DNA of 33,649 bases from Betaproteobacteria bacterium (GTDB taxonomy: Bacteria > Pseudomonadota > Gammaproteobacteria > Burkholderiales > SG8-41). Every line of letters begins with the position of its first letter. The stretch's first letter is position 1. Below the pieces are notes generated by a model. It was not told where the DNA came from and ran no database searches. It saw only the letters and a program-made list of their open reading frames with translations. The position numbers and the translations under genes are program-made. Positions 28,358 through 33,649 of the stretch are shown in pieces. The stretch is taken from contig CANKUB010000045.1 of the NCBI GenBank assembly GCA_947486575.1, positions 1 through 33,649 on the forward strand. Reading direction: 5' to 3'.

Positions 28358-28924
28358 ATGGTCGAAAGCACTGAGCCAGGCCAGGACATGAGCGAAATCC
28401 AGCTCACGTCGCAAACCGTTTTTCAGGGCAAGTTGCTGCACGTAAAATCTGACCGCGTACGCCTGCTCAACGGTCACGAATCGACGCGCGAATATATTCT
28501 GCATCCCGGCGCGTCGATGATCATTGCGATGACGGACGACAAAACCATTACCCTGATCCGCCAGTATCGATATCCCCTGAACCAGCATTTTATTGAGCTA
28601 CCCGCAGGCAAAATTGATCCGGGCGAAGACCCGCTCGATACCGCCAAACGCGAGTTACGCGAAGAGTGCGGTTACATTGCTACAGAATGGCGGCATCTCA
28701 CGACGCTGCATCCCGGCATTGGTTACTCCAACGAACGCATTGAACTGTATCTCGCACGCGGCATCACGCAAGCAGGGCGTCATCTGGATGAAGACGAATT
28801 CCTGGAAATGCTGCACGTGCCGGTCGCAGTAGCGATGACATGGATACGCGACGGCCGCATCACCGAAGCCAAGGCTGTAACCGGTCTCTTGTGGGCTGAA
28901 AAGCTGCTGAACGGGGAGTGGTAA
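28358..28924 (+). CDS. Nudix hydrolase, ADP-ribose pyrophosphatase-like
   Basis: This is a Nudix hydrolase most like the NudF/ADP-sugar diphosphatases, which clear ADP-ribose to AMP and ribose-5-phosphate. The 188-residue protein has a complete Nudix box, GKIDPGEDPLDTAKRELREECGY (GX5EX7REUXEEXGU), at about 86-108. It is preceded by the family's FIELPAGK and followed by LHPGIGYSNERIELYLA. The Met at 28388 (MSEIQLTSQTVF) has a slightly better ribosome site (AGGA) and fits the family, so the first ten residues may not be translated. Its position 11 bases after nuoN suggests cotranscription with NAD(H)-using complex I; a link to NAD turnover is inference. It converges on the next gene with only 14 bases between the stops, where a 4-bp CGCC/GGCG stem lies. 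Confidence 0.92.
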   Translation: MVESTEPGQDMSEIQLTSQTVFQGKLLHVKSDRVRLLNGHESTREYILHPGASMIIAMTDDKTITLIRQYRYPLNQHFIELPAGKIDPGEDPLDTAKRELREECGYIATEWRHLTTLHPGIGYSNERIELYLARGITQAGRHLDEDEFLEMLHVPVAVAMTWIRDGRITEAKAVTGLLWAEKLLNGEW

Positions 28925-28938
28925 CGCCAATACGGCGG

Positions 28939-30918
28939 CTAAAGCGCGCCTGAGGTTAGTGCCGCCGCTTGTCCTGGCAGCAGATTTTCCAATAACCCGG
29001 GTTTTTGAAATAAATAGCCTTGGCCGTACTCCGTGCCCATTTCGACCAATATTTCCAGCGCCTCGGCGTCCTCCACCCACTCCGCGATGACCTGTTTTTT
29101 CAGGCCTTGGGCAACGTCGTTCAGTGCTTTGACGAACAGGCGGCTACCGTTGTCGCTGGCGAGATTGCGGATAAAGTTGCCGTCGATTTTGAGGTAATCG
29201 ACGTCAAACTGCTTCAGATAATAGAACGAGTTGAAGCCCGCGCCAAAATCATCCAGTGCAATGCGACAGCCGAGTTCTTTAATGCGACGGATAAATTTCA
29301 GCGTCACATCAATCTGCGACAGTGCAGCCGTTTCTGTGATTTCCAGCACCAGTTGATTGGGCTTTACGCCGCTTTTCGCCAGAATGGCTGCGACACGCTC
29401 TGTCCACGCTGCGCTCGACATGGAGACGCCGGACACATTCACAAAATAGCGCACCCTGGCACCGGCCTGGCCCTGCTGTTTAATGTGCGCAAGCACCTTG
29501 GTAATCACACATAAATCGATTTCCTGAGCGATGCCCAGTGATTCCGCGATTTCCAGGAAATTGCCCGGGGCAATATAGGTGCCATTGCTGTCGAGAATGC
29601 GCAGCAAAATTTCATGGTGCGTGATGCGCCGGTCGCTCAGGCGTATAACCGCCTGCGCGAACAACGTGATGCGATCCTGATAAAGTGCGTCACGCAGTTT
29701 TTTTGCCCAATGGGTACGCTTGTGCGTGTTGCGCAGCGCATTCGCTTCCGGGTCAAACAACGCGTAACGATTGCGCCCCAGATCCTTGGCATGGTACAAC
29801 GACAAATCAACGTTGGCAAACAGGACGGCCACGGTGTCACCGTGGAACGGATATATGCCAATGCCGATAGAGGCTGAAACATTGGAGAAAATCCGTCCCT
29901 CCGCTACTTTCAACCGATAGTGGCGGATCGCCGTCAGCGCGCGCTCGGCGGTTTGTATGGCTTTTTCACGCAAGGTTTCAGGTAAATGAATGGCGAATTC
30001 ATCACCGCCAATCCGGTATAACTCGCCGTTTTCGTTCTGAATGGCTTCACGCAGCACGCCGCCGACGGCGGTTACAATTTGATCGCCGGTGCGATGACCG
30101 AAATGATCATTGACGTATTTGAAGTGGTCGATGTCGAGAAACAGCAAAGCGCCGGGCGAACTGCCGCTGGACTTCAGTGCGCGTTCCATCATGCGCTGCA
30201 AGGCGTGACGGTTGGGCAGATCGGTCAGCGCGTCGTGCATCGCGAGATGCTCGATATGCAGGCGCGCGCGTTGTTCCTCGGTGATATCGCGTGCGGTACC
30301 GCGTATGCCGCGCATTTCTTTGGCGTCGTTTAGCGTGACGCGCGCGTTAATGCCGATCCAGCGATCTTCGCCGTTTTTGGAGCGCAGGTGAGTGACATAT
30401 TGCTTGACTTCACCGTGGCGCCGCAGCAATGACAAAAAACGCCGATTGGCGACATGTGCCGTATCCACTTCAAAATCAAAAAAGCAGCGTCCCAAAAGGT
30501 CTTTGGGATCGAGCCCGAAAATGTCATTGGCGGCATTGTTCAAATACGTAAAGCTGCCCTGCGCGTCAGTTGCCCAGATTAAATCATGCGAGGTTTCTAC
30601 CAGATCGCGGTAGCGGCCTTCGCTTTCGACTAGCAACTGAATAATGCGTTGCTTTTCCGCCAGCCTCAGCTTGGTTGAAGCCAGCTCGTGCGACATTTTG
30701 CTATCCGCCGCCGCCGAACGCACAATGATCTGGTCGATTAAATCCTTGGGGTAGCGCCGGTGTCCGCCGCGCGTGCGCACGGCCACCAGCACACCCTGTG
30801 TATCCCAGCGGCGTAGTTTGTAAATCGGCACACCGAGCAAGGCGGCGGTTTCCTGGACGGTGTATTCGTGTTGCGGCATGGACATCTTGATGTTGCAGTA
30901 AAAACGCTTAAAAATCAA
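28939..30918 (-). CDS. MerR-HTH/PAS/GGDEF/EAL cyclic-di-GMP regulator
   Basis: This 659-residue protein joins DNA binding, sensing and c-di-GMP turnover. A MerR/excisionase-type helix-turn-helix covers about 19-65 (YTVQETAALLGV, then RTRGGHRRY). A short coiled coil (about 75-100), a PAS domain (about 100-215), a GGDEF domain (about 228-390; intact GGDEF at 304-308) and an EAL domain (about 405-645) follow. The EAL signature reads EIL (Glu436), but other catalytic positions are kept: Asn494, Glu526, Asp556-Asp557, Lys577, Glu613 and Gln633. No RxxD inhibitory site precedes GGDEF. Both activities are therefore plausible. The frame opens with TTG at 30918, overlapping the synthase stop (TTGA); ATG at 30885 or 30879 gives a more natural start. 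The tandem arrangement with an RpfF-like synthase recalls RpfR, which lacks the HTH. Confidence 0.9.
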   Translation of the reverse strand: MIFKRFYCNIKMSMPQHEYTVQETAALLGVPIYKLRRWDTQGVLVAVRTRGGHRRYPKDLIDQIIVRSAAADSKMSHELASTKLRLAEKQRIIQLLVESEGRYRDLVETSHDLIWATDAQGSFTYLNNAANDIFGLDPKDLLGRCFFDFEVDTAHVANRRFLSLLRRHGEVKQYVTHLRSKNGEDRWIGINARVTLNDAKEMRGIRGTARDITEEQRARLHIEHLAMHDALTDLPNRHALQRMMERALKSSGSSPGALLFLDIDHFKYVNDHFGHRTGDQIVTAVGGVLREAIQNENGELYRIGGDEFAIHLPETLREKAIQTAERALTAIRHYRLKVAEGRIFSNVSASIGIGIYPFHGDTVAVLFANVDLSLYHAKDLGRNRYALFDPEANALRNTHKRTHWAKKLRDALYQDRITLFAQAVIRLSDRRITHHEILLRILDSNGTYIAPGNFLEIAESLGIAQEIDLCVITKVLAHIKQQGQAGARVRYFVNVSGVSMSSAAWTERVAAILAKSGVKPNQLVLEITETAALSQIDVTLKFIRRIKELGCRIALDDFGAGFNSFYYLKQFDVDYLKIDGNFIRNLASDNGSRLFVKALNDVAQGLKKQVIAEWVEDAEALEILVEMGTEYGQGYLFQKPGLLENLLPGQAAALTSGAL

Positions 30919-31841
30919 TGTACTTGCGCCGATTCTCCCAAGCCGTTCTGACGTGACACCAGGCGATGCATGAGCTTCAGGTCACGCACGTTCAAGCGCA
31001 ACGCTGCATCTACCCAGATTTGCACCACATCCATTAACTCCTCAAATGTCAGGCTGTGCACGCGGCGGCGCACAGCGGCAAGGGCCGCCATGCCGTTGCG
31101 GCTCAAGCGCCGTTGTTTGATGAGCGTGTTGACGGCTTCTTCGCCCGCGCCGTTTTCTGCCACGACATCGACAACGCCCAATGCCTGCATTTCGTCGGCG
31201 CTGTAAATGCGACCGCTGGCAATCAGGTTTTCAGCAGCTTTTTGACCGATTTTGCGATCCAGAAAACTGTAAGCACCCATGCCGGGAAACAGATTAAAGA
31301 GTATTTCGGGGAAACCGAAGCGCGCACTTTTCTCGGCGACAATCACGTCACTGGATAGAGCCGCTTCGAAGCCGCCGCCCAGACATTCTCCCTGTACCAG
31401 CGAAATAGTGGTGACGGGCAGTTCGTGGCCAATGTAGTTGCGGTAGAGCACGTCGATACAGGCGCGCCCGTAGCGCAGCAGGCCCTGCCGGTCCTGCGTG
31501 GCGATGAGTTGTTTAAACAAATCGAGGTCGCCACCGAGATTAAACACGCCAGGCATGCTGGAGGCGAGCACTACATATTCGACGGTAGTTTGTTCGCCTT
31601 CGCATTGCAGAATGCCGCCACTGTCGGATAAAAAGCTGTAGTAACCGCGGATATCTGCCAGCAGGCGCGGGTTAAAACAGGGGCGCGGATCGGCGCTCCA
31701 GCGTGACCATATGGCGCGTGTGCGCTTATCGAAGCGTACATTGAGTTGAGGCGAAAATTCGTATTCAATTTCCGCGTCATGCACGCGGGTGTACGGTTGT
31801 TGACGTGCTTCTTGAATCGCAGCTGGTACGTGCATTTCCAT
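30915..31841 (-). CDS. rpfF: RpfF-like DSF synthase (crotonase superfamily)
   Basis: This is most likely a diffusible signal factor synthase, a dual acyl-ACP dehydratase/thioesterase that makes cis-2-unsaturated fatty-acid signals. The 308-residue crotonase-fold protein shows FNLGGDLDLF (about 100-109), QGECLGGGFEAALSSDV (150-165) and FGFPEILFNLFPGMGAYS (175-192). Glu159 and Glu179 are 20 residues apart, matching the catalytic pair Glu141/Glu161 of Xanthomonas RpfF. The ATG at 31841 is chosen because GGGAG lies seven bases upstream; a longer frame to 31886 is unlikely. It is transcribed before the MerR-PAS-GGDEF-EAL gene. Other crotonases (enoyl-CoA hydratases) are the alternative, but the FNLFPGMGAYS segment and the neighbour favour RpfF. 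Confidence 0.85.
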   Translation of the reverse strand: MEMHVPAAIQEARQQPYTRVHDAEIEYEFSPQLNVRFDKRTRAIWSRWSADPRPCFNPRLLADIRGYYSFLSDSGGILQCEGEQTTVEYVVLASSMPGVFNLGGDLDLFKQLIATQDRQGLLRYGRACIDVLYRNYIGHELPVTTISLVQGECLGGGFEAALSSDVIVAEKSARFGFPEILFNLFPGMGAYSFLDRKIGQKAAENLIASGRIYSADEMQALGVVDVVAENGAGEEAVNTLIKQRRLSRNGMAALAAVRRRVHSLTFEELMDVVQIWVDAALRLNVRDLKLMHRLVSRQNGLGESAQVH

Positions 31842-31909
31842 GGCATTTCTCCCGGACTGAATTGTTTGTTGGCAGGTTTGTGTCACCGCTGGTTTGGAGC
31901 CACGCCTGC

Positions 31910-31938
31910 ATTAAACGGAGAGCGACTTTAAAAATCAA
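31910..31938 (-). promoter_or_regulatory. Candidate promoter of the DSF synthase operon
   Basis: On the minus strand, TTGATT (31938-31933) and TTTAAT (31915-31910) are separated by 17 bases, with 4/6 and 5/6 matches to sigma70 consensus. Transcription would start near 31903, about 60 bases before the synthase ATG. The stretch upstream (31940-31980) is strongly AT-rich and could act as an UP element. Confidence 0.5.
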
Positions 31939-32024
31939 ATCTGTAATTTTGTTAGGTTTAAAAATTATTAAATTAAAACAAAGGGTTATGAGATGATAAT
32001 CACAGTAGGCTGATTAAAAAATTT

Positions 32025-32149: not shown

Positions 32150-32168
32150 CGAGAACAATAATTGCTTG

Positions 32169-33649
32169 ATGGCGGTTAGGAATATGCGCGTTTGTATTCG
32201 ATGGCTGCTTCGTACCCTGTTTCGCCTGCGCGTGATAAGCCATTTGAATGGTCAGGGTGACGCAGCGCGATTAGTGCCGTTTGCGCACGGGCCGCGCCTG
32301 CTTGTTTCGCATTGTGAATCTGCGTTGGACGGCGTGCTACTGGGATTGTTTTTGCCAGGCGATCCGCTGGTGGTAGCGACACCGGAAATGCACGCGCAGC
32401 TTATTCCGCGTTTACTGATGCGCTGGGTGCGCTGTTTAAAGATAGATGCGGCACATCCGATGGCGCTAAAGGATGTGGTGCATCATGTGCGTGACGGCGG
32501 TGTGGCGGTGATCTTTCCGCAAGGTCGCGTTACCACCACCGGCGCATTAATGAAGACCTACGATGCGGCCGCGGTAATCGCAGCGCATTGCAGCGATGAA
32601 GTAGTGCCGGTGCGTATCAGCGGCACGCTGTACTCGCGCTACGCCGCCACGTCAGGCTTGTGGCCGAAGCGTTGGTTCCCTGCGATAACCATAACGGTGC
32701 ACGCACCGGTGCGCATCACGCAGGCCACGCAAACGCAGCCTCGCCACAAGCGACGTGCTCGCGCAGATGCGCTGCATCGGGTGTTGCAAAACATGCTGGG
32801 TACGGCGGCTGACAATCGCTGCCTGTTTGGCGCATTCGTGGATGCGGTAGCATTGCACGGTCGGCGCACGACCATTATCGAAGATGCGCGGCGGCAGCCC
32901 GAAACGTACGGCCAGCTGCTTAAGGTGGCGCTGGCGCTCGGTCGCCTGGCCGCGCGTGAAACCACAGCGGGTGAAACCGTGGGCGTGCTGATGCCGAGCA
33001 TTTCTACCGCCCTGAGTCTGGTGCTGGGTCTGGCCGCACACGGTCGAACGGCTGCGATGCTTAACGACAGCGCCGGGCTTAACGTCATGCACAAGGCCTG
33101 TATTGCCACAGGCGTGCGCACGGTGATTGCATCGCGCCAGTTTCTCGCGGTGATACGGTTGCAGGGTATCGCTGAAGGTTTGAAAGGTATCAAAATACTG
33201 TATGTGGAAGATTTGCGCGCGCGACTTACAGTGGCTGACAAGTTGTGGCTGATAGGGTACGCATTGTGGTTTCCGCGCGCGGCCTGTCCGGACAGAAAGC
33301 CCGCTGAGCCCGCCGTGGTGCTGTTTACCTCGGGGTCGGAAGGGCTGCCCAAAGGGGTGGTGCTGTCGCATGCGGCGATGCTGGCAAATATGACGCAACT
33401 GCGCGCGGTAATTGACTACGGCCCCGACGACAAGTTCTTCAGTGCATTGCCGCTGTATCACACGTTCGGTCTGATCGCGTGTTCGATGATGCCGCTGATG
33501 ACCGGTACGCGACAATTTCTGTATGTGTCGCCGCTGCGCTATCGCACCATTCCCGAACTGGTTTATGTGAGCGGCGCAACCTATCTGTTTGGCACCAGCA
33601 CGTTTCTGGGTCACTATGCGCGCCAGGCGCATCCAGCTGATTTTCAGTC
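32169..33649 (+). CDS. PlsC acyltransferase/AMP-dependent acyl ligase fusion (Aas-like), partial
   Basis: The frame stays open to the window end (493 codons seen, C terminus missing). It resembles Aas, which reacylates lysophospholipids with an acyl group activated as acyl-AMP/ACP. Residues about 25-185 form a PlsC-type domain (LDGVLLGLFLP, then RVTTTGALMKTYDAAA). From about 215 an AMP-binding ligase domain follows, with the ATP loop FTSGSEGLPKGVVLSH (about 383-398) and LPLYHTFGL. The acyltransferase motifs are atypical: the HX4D box reads SHCESALD (His and Asp one residue too far apart) and FPEGR reads FPQGR. Start candidates are ATG 32169 and ATG 32184; the latter has AGGA but only two bases away. 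It is divergent from the DSF synthase, so a role in handling fatty-acid signals is possible but unproven. Confidence 0.85.
   Translation, partial: MAVRNMRVCIRWLLRTLFRLRVISHLNGQGDAARLVPFAHGPRLLVSHCESALDGVLLGLFLPGDPLVVATPEMHAQLIPRLLMRWVRCLKIDAAHPMALKDVVHHVRDGGVAVIFPQGRVTTTGALMKTYDAAAVIAAHCSDEVVPVRISGTLYSRYAATSGLWPKRWFPAITITVHAPVRITQATQTQPRHKRRARADALHRVLQNMLGTAADNRCLFGAFVDAVALHGRRTTIIEDARRQPETYGQLLKVALALGRLAARETTAGETVGVLMPSISTALSLVLGLAAHGRTAAMLNDSAGLNVMHKACIATGVRTVIASRQFLAVIRLQGIAEGLKGIKILYVEDLRARLTVADKLWLIGYALWFPRAACPDRKPAEPAVVLFTSGSEGLPKGVVLSHAAMLANMTQLRAVIDYGPDDKFFSALPLYHTFGLIACSMMPLMTGTRQFLYVSPLRYRTIPELVYVSGATYLFGTSTFLGHYARQAHPADFQ

Follow-up and report, generated by a model that had tools for sequence, protein, structure and literature searches.

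Gene organization of the rpfF locus

The window analyzed in this study is the 33,649-nucleotide (nt) stretch of contig CANKUB010000045.1 (assembly GCA_947486575.1, positions 1 to 33,649 of the forward strand) from a Betaproteobacteria bacterium of the order Burkholderiales. On sequence grounds, it pairs the gene for a signal synthase with the gene for a putative DNA-binding enzyme of cyclic di-GMP (c-di-GMP) turnover, both on the reverse strand. The first gene (30915-31841) codes for an RpfF-family crotonase and starts at an ATG (31841) that is kept in relatives (M-E/D-M) and is also the end coordinate of an earlier, model-made interpretation of the letters alone (the sequence-only reading); a longer open reading frame (ORF) runs from a GTG at 31886. 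The second gene (28939-30885) codes for a regulator with the domain order MerR-PAS-GGDEF-EAL, and its ATG (30885) comes about 30 nt after the end of rpfF. The conserved N-terminus of the regulator begins at this ATG, and a longer version with a TTG start at 30918 overlaps rpfF by 4 nt. The palindrome AAAYCTAWCANNNTGTTAGATTT sits before rpfF (31937-31959; AAACCTAACAAAATTACAGATTT on the reverse strand), with its center 107 nt ahead of the rpfF ATG, and is a candidate operator. The coordinates and domains proposed for both genes in the sequence-only reading held.

An RpfF-family synthase

The longer synthase ORF (30915-31886) scored 359.7 bits with the PRK08788 crotonase model (cut-off, 177). Its second NCBIfam match was the RpfF model NF053515, at 226.7 bits and under the cut-off of 550, which two RpfFs of the Burkholderia type, also from this order, missed too (175.3 and 177.8 bits). 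We therefore filed the synthase as an RpfF-family protein and not as an NCBIfam equivalog. The solved relatives that scored best with the synthase include the RpfF structures 3m6m and 6dgn. Two glutamates (E174 and E194 of alignment A1) are invariant in 18 aligned RpfF-like proteins and correspond to the catalytic E141 and E161 of the Xanthomonas campestris pv. campestris (Xcc) RpfF; the synthase was also aligned to 3m6m. In a 70-row tree, 65 RpfF-like proteins (including Xcc 3m6m, 5fus and Burkholderia-type sequences) split from five hydratases of a single genome with support of 99/97; the tree is a subset that omits about half of the distant loci, and its hydratase and Xcc branches are long. 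One clade (100/100) grouped 24 regulator-linked RpfFs with two same-genus proteins lacking the regulator (L058 and L060) and with L051. The tree rules out an ordinary enoyl-CoA hydratase and upholds the RpfF-family membership first suggested from the letters alone. By family, the enzyme would probably make a cis-2 fatty acid, or free fatty acids, from acyl-acyl carrier protein (acyl-ACP).

A MerR-PAS-GGDEF-EAL regulator distinct from RpfR

Pfam recognized four domains above their cut-offs in the longer regulator ORF (28939-30918): MerR (residues 20-56; 36.0 bits, cut-off 28.2), PAS (102-212), GGDEF (226-384) and EAL (406-640). A single chain carries the helix-turn-helix (HTH), sensor and c-di-GMP domains, as the sequence-only reading had it. 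The HTH and its wing (30727-30864, reverse strand) have the pattern LRRWDxQGVLVAxRTxGGHRRY, and their nearest solved sequences include DNA-binding proteins (6ama/6amk, TipA and SoxR) and CarH. HTH and wing residues typical of DNA-binding MerR proteins were invariant or nearly so in relatives. A structure model of residues 1-222, built from 47 sequences (mean predicted local distance difference test score, pLDDT, 85.4; predicted template modeling score, pTM, 0.58), has an HTH, a long helix (47-97) joining it to the next domain, and a PAS fold (30283-30615). Among the structural matches listed for the PAS domain were other PAS and LOV domains and no RpfR PAS. The GGDEF domain (29767-30243) has an intact motif and, in the window protein, no RxxD inhibitory site; the EAL domain (28999-29703) is intact in this protein at the eight positions inspected. 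The catalytic residues inspected, those of the GGDEF motif and eight in the EAL domain, were each kept in 15-16 of 16 homologues, and the regulator thus has the intact EAL residues expected of the trigger phosphodiesterases discussed below. In L066 and its relatives (genus g7), the GGDEF motif reads GEDQF and one EAL glutamate is a lysine, and the HTH and the palindromic site remain. This degeneracy suggests a shift to a non-enzymatic sensor in that genus.

The regulator shares with RpfR the PAS-GGDEF-EAL order and the linkage to rpfF. According to the available part of the RpfR literature (PMC6361424), residues 1-95 of RpfR form an FI domain through which RpfF is bound and inhibited, the PAS domain spans residues 118-224, and the Burkholderia diffusible signal factor (BDSF) is contacted by S169, N172, Y183, R187 and N202. 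The core of the MerR-type regulator is colinear with residues 116-644 of PdeR, the Escherichia coli relative of RpfR (29% identity), and the alignment begins only at residue 116; the MerR HTH occupies the place of the FI domain. Among the matches listed (E<=1e-60), those covering the FI domain occurred only in seven Burkholderia-type genomes. These seven genomes of the order have a Burkholderia-type RpfF (37-41% identical to that of the window), each with a full-length RpfR homologue whose gene converges on rpfF. In an alignment of low identity across the contact region, 16 MerR-type proteins carried N, F, K/R/L/Q, T/S and N at the five BDSF-contact positions, whereas the seven RpfR-type controls kept the serine in 4/7 and N172, the aromatic residue, R187 and N202 in 7/7. 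Thus, the missing FI domain and ligand residues rule out that the regulator is RpfR proper. The idea that its PAS domain senses the signal as RpfR does likewise found no support, with N172 and R187 replaced by F and T/S and the FI domain absent. Because the BDSF contacts are mostly changed, the PAS domain may bind another ligand, or a diffusible signal factor (DSF) in another way.

Conservation of the gene pair

A survey of 399 genomes of the order returned 73 RpfF matches (E<=1e-40), and 38 of them were followed by the regulator gene in the same orientation. The pairing followed RpfF relatedness. The regulator was next door, on the same strand and 25-559 nt away, in 37/37 RpfF copies that share 52% identity or more with that of the window (two of these regulator matches, in G003 and G006, are partial); it adjoined only 1/36 of the more distant copies (G212, diverged). 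A named collection of 80 loci gave the same picture: 20/20 testable close RpfFs (57-76%) were paired with the regulator, against 0/59 of those at 53% or less, 54 of which have at least 1 kb downstream. The remaining locus (L101, RpfF 60%) could not be assessed because the contig stops 8 nt past rpfF. All 20 paired loci in this collection are titled as metagenome-assembled genomes (MAGs), most of them Betaproteobacteria or Burkholderiales. Both surveys bear out the earlier expectation that the two genes are co-conserved in relatives.

The neighborhood is conserved as well. With neighboring genes assigned by tblastn (greedy ORF calling gave spurious genes in GC-rich loci), the order nuoN - NUDIX, regulator - rpfF, Aas repeated over many families. 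In the window, a divergent Aas-like gene for an acyltransferase/acyl-ACP ligase (32166-33647, forward strand) is cut by the contig end, and a convergent NudE-like NUDIX hydrolase gene (28358-28924, forward strand) follows nuoN, with the nuo operon beyond it. The NUDIX gene is a conserved syntenic neighbor and probably lies outside the rpfF/regulator system. The Aas-like gene adjoined rpfF in 44 of 49 distinct loci. It was missing from the stretch fetched in all eight loci where the regulator was kept (once broken) and rpfF lost (L159-L166), so that rpfF and the ligase seem to go together.

Because the locus keeps a fixed place beside the nuo operon, some of the pairing can be put down to shared synteny by itself. 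Together with a synthase score under the NCBIfam RpfF cut-off, this is what could be said for chance neighbors, or for an ordinary enoyl-CoA hydratase that adjoins a c-di-GMP enzyme unrelated to it. We strongly disfavor this explanation as very improbable: the pair is conserved over many families, belongs to one RpfF clade and has a co-conserved site, and one pair (L167), though diverged, lies away from nuo.

Several loci depart from the common arrangement. A lipase/esterase-like ORF separates rpfF and the regulator in L057/L080 and L078 (genomes G039 and G047). In L059 (G003), a stop within the N-terminal match puts the HTH and part of the PAS domain out of frame while the palindrome is kept, a sign of an assembly error or a decaying gene. 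L085, on a MAG contig titled Bordetella parapertussis, has a locus of the uncultivated type with an RpfF 69% identical to that of the window, and is probably a misnamed bin. Genomes G063 and G026, of the family of the window, carry a second rpfF, with co-directional genes downstream of it for a REC-HD-GYP protein and a membrane hybrid kinase that are RpfG- and RpfC-like (L051:893-5431 and L052:894-5405). Both genomes have the MerR-type rpfF locus elsewhere, and hence two DSF-type systems per cell. Using the RpfC-like protein of L051 as query, we found no RpfC-like kinase in the genome of the window at E<=1e-100. The absence of rpfC noted in the window by the sequence-only reading extends, at this threshold, to the whole genome.

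A palindrome in front of rpfF

The conserved inverted repeat emerged from the aligned rpfF upstream regions of six loci of the same genus. The consensus AAATCTAACANNNTGTTAGATTT was matched within 4 mismatches out of 20 in 39 of 50 distinct rpfF upstream regions with the regulator (53 before removal of three repeats) and within 5 in 42. At up to 5 mismatches, controls gave 2 matches in 1060 shuffles and 1 in 68 rpfF upstream regions without a neighboring regulator. The single control match is L101, where the RpfF belongs with the linked copies by its 60% identity and the contig stops short of any regulator. Perfect copies of the palindrome include those upstream of rpfF in L080 and L068. In genus g38, the site is at the same place in a diverged form, and the copy in the window is itself weak (3 mismatches from the degenerate pattern). 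A genus-specific pattern was found at one locus in each of the six source genomes and in none of seven other genomes; five of the seven have no rpfF match, and their regulator status is established for two.

The halves of the palindrome vary without compensation, with pairing kept in 18/30 and 11/30 sequences at two positions. Such uncompensated changes point to a dyad in the DNA, not to a stem in RNA, and rule out an RNA hairpin or terminator in place of a DNA site. Sigma-70 and terminator patterns in the window were near the shuffled expectation, except for a TTGACA-17-AATAAT before the Aas-like gene.

The palindrome and the regulator across genomes

Allowing up to one mismatch, the palindrome occurred in 22 of the 399 genomes, all of them among the 46 with a regulator match. 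The remaining 353 had no such copy, and the reversed pattern was found nowhere. The overlap has a hypergeometric probability of 1e-23, a figure that ignores shared ancestry. Two of the 22 genomes (G348 and G282) have no rpfF match, which indicates that the site follows the regulator. The conserved palindrome and its tie to the regulator argue, from sequence, that the HTH is used.

This distribution bears on whether the protein could be a variant RpfR, in which the PAS domain would bind the signal, only c-di-GMP turnover would count and the MerR domain would be a protein-protein module (e.g., towards RpfF) that does not bind DNA. The colinearity with PdeR and the location of the MerR domain where the RpfF-binding FI domain would be are consistent with such a role. 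However, a palindrome confined to regulator genomes and the near-invariance of the DNA-binding-type wing and HTH residues make it unlikely.

We also examined the surroundings of palindrome copies away from rpfF. Copies with up to two mismatches were present in 20 of 22 chosen relatives. Flanks were read for 50 copies, 30 from 14 relatives and 20 of the 22 from the 399-genome scan (G183:C130 and G221:C333 were left out), counting genes that start near the site and point away from it. Genes for c-di-GMP turnover flank 7 of the 50 sites, coding for GGDEF/EAL or EAL proteins (L205, L206, L211, L222 and L275) and for GAF-HD proteins of the HD-GYP kind (L217 and L270). Beside the first 30 sites there were 4 EAL genes, where 0.22 would be expected from the 219 such genes counted over 59.5 Mb if there is one gene per kb (P about 8e-5). 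Five genomes from two families have a type I secretion exporter next to the site (L210, L219, L221, L228 and L271), accompanied in all but L271 by a divergent YgfZ-like gene, and RTX proteins are found in L215 and L216. Four genomes (L220, L227, L273 and L281) have, immediately next to the palindrome, a member of a family of about 120 amino acids that has no Pfam or NCBIfam match and is a candidate unnamed regulon member. Other neighbors are two single-domain response regulators (L207), a WecA-like transferase (L225) and a T2SSE/MshEN ATPase (L284).

A proposed model of self-controlled signaling

The genes, their domains and conservation, and a palindrome tied to the regulator are best explained, at a probability of roughly 70%, by a DNA-binding c-di-GMP 'trigger enzyme' that controls its own signal synthase and a small regulon for a surface lifestyle. 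With a conserved palindrome ahead of its synthase gene, the pair may be a cell-cell signaling switch that controls itself and has an undescribed build. In this model, rpfF and the regulator gene make up a conserved unit of two genes, in most cases accompanied by the divergent gene for the acyl-ACP ligase. The regulator would dimerize through the helix between HTH and PAS, and its HTH would bind the palindrome in the rpfF promoter and thus control its own operon. In many relatives, it may control a few further promoters, those of c-di-GMP enzymes, the type I secretion exporter, RTX and other surface proteins. The EAL and GGDEF domains, with catalytic residues intact, would couple c-di-GMP turnover to DNA binding. 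Turnover and PAS input could then alter the hold of the protein on the rpfF promoter, whether it acts as an activator or a repressor.

Several observations weigh against this model. Two genomes of the genus of the window (G005 and G011) keep rpfF without the regulator. Conversely, eight genomes have a regulator match and no RpfF match; one of these regulators is broken (G282) and two lack a recovered HTH (G336 and G278). Eight of the 50 distinct rpfF upstream regions have 6-8 mismatches to the consensus. In the 5.35-Mb genome of the window, only the site at rpfF was found at up to 3 mismatches; a regulon in the organism's own genome was thus rejected, and none is shown for it. Many of the 50 distant sites flank genes without an obvious theme, such as purB and genes for aspartate kinase, a cytochrome, HbpS-like, heme oxygenase-like, RHS and REP transposase-like proteins. 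The c-di-GMP category, EAL genes included, was picked after the list had been viewed, and ORFs near the sites were chosen by a rule on third-position GC content (GC3). Furthermore, 24 of the 46 regulator genomes, that of the window included, have no copy of the palindrome at up to one mismatch. This last count would also suit a palindrome that serves as operator for some other factor inherited together with the locus. Yet the site tracks the regulator where rpfF was lost and is missing where only rpfF was kept (G011 has 8 mismatches upstream of rpfF and hence no site; in G005, rpfF starts 16 nt from the contig end, and its upstream region is hence unseen). The regulator is also the HTH-bearing gene directly beside the palindrome, and binding by another factor appears improbable.

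For the input to the PAS domain, gene linkage points to the product of RpfF as the most probable single candidate. The full form of the proposal is that one cytoplasmic protein binds a cis-2 fatty acid made by RpfF in a PAS pocket unlike that of RpfR and shifts the balance of c-di-GMP synthesis and hydrolysis. Its own binding to the 23-bp palindrome would shift as a result, feeding back on the synthase and on a regulon of c-di-GMP, secretion and surface genes. We offer it tentatively, at somewhat less than even odds. The Aas-like ligase, missing where rpfF was lost, may serve to recycle the fatty acid or to remove it, by analogy with xanthomonad RpfB.

The retention of only N202 among the five BDSF contacts, in 16/16 MerR-type proteins, counts against a PAS that binds the signal as RpfR does and leaves room for a different input. 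The regulator would still bind DNA, but its PAS domain would sense something other than a DSF (or the EAL and GGDEF domains would sense c-di-GMP), and RpfF and the ligase would serve the turnover of membrane fatty acids. Consistent with this, the Aas-like gene accompanies rpfF in most loci and is absent from the regulator-only stretches. Moreover, RpfF cleaves many acyl-ACPs, as described in the available part of PMC6361424. On the other hand, the RpfFs of sister groups in the tree sit with HD-GYP or RpfR signaling genes, and the palindrome targets are surface and c-di-GMP genes. A ligase also fits signaling: the xanthomonad rpf operon includes rpfB, for a fatty acyl-CoA ligase, in the accessible sections of PMC4504480. 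A non-DSF input is possible, at odds well short of even.

Relationship to known systems and significance

The available portion of PMC4504480 describes two core DSF receptors, RpfC/RpfG and RpfR. Like the RpfF/RpfC/RpfG systems of xanthomonads and others, the locus links RpfF to c-di-GMP control, but has a single chain where those systems have a two-component kinase and an HD-GYP regulator. The HD-GYP motif itself was found in 31/70 loci with a more distant RpfF. The RpfF/RpfR systems of Burkholderia and Cronobacter differ in that RpfR opens with the FI domain, here a MerR HTH, and relies on BDSF contacts of which the regulator keeps one; rpfF and rpfR are convergent in 7/7 genomes of the order, whereas rpfF and the regulator are co-directional.

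Closer parallels for a c-di-GMP enzyme with a DNA-binding domain are the E. coli trigger phosphodiesterases. In the parts of the sources available (PMC5052742, PMC5635695, PMC3509220), PdeR binds and inhibits DgcM and the MerR-like MlrA until c-di-GMP occupies PdeR. MlrA recognizes an AT-rich inverted repeat, and PdeL joins a LuxR-type HTH to an EAL domain and binds DNA. The likeness would lie in an active EAL enzyme coupled to a DNA-binding MerR-type factor in trans (PdeR/MlrA) or to an HTH in one chain (PdeL). The same parts of these sources describe no link of PdeR or PdeL to a DSF synthase, and the MerR-PAS-GGDEF-EAL chain and its palindrome also set the locus apart. BldC and other MerR-type proteins (6ama/6amk, TipA, SoxR and CarH) have the HTH and the RTxGGHRRY wing in common with the regulator; by their descriptions, the matched chains lack PAS or c-di-GMP domains. 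Judged by titles, abstract openings and selected passages, no paper listed in full-text searches of a library with few subscription papers describes a MerR-PAS-GGDEF-EAL protein beside rpfF. A Cupriavidus paper considered as a precedent (PMC6629876) was set aside because the MerR passages in its available text are unrelated.

We regard the locus as a new variant of DSF/c-di-GMP signaling. With a c-di-GMP enzyme that carries its own DNA-binding domain, two genes would bring together the making of the signal, the second messenger and transcription. Such an enzyme would also correspond, in covalent form, to the PdeR-MlrA contact of E. coli. The palindrome predicts an operator and a list of targets in the genomes of hardly cultured bacteria, which makes the idea directly testable. 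If the regulator does sense a cis-2 fatty acid, it would represent a third core form of DSF signaling, in uncultivated betaproteobacteria.

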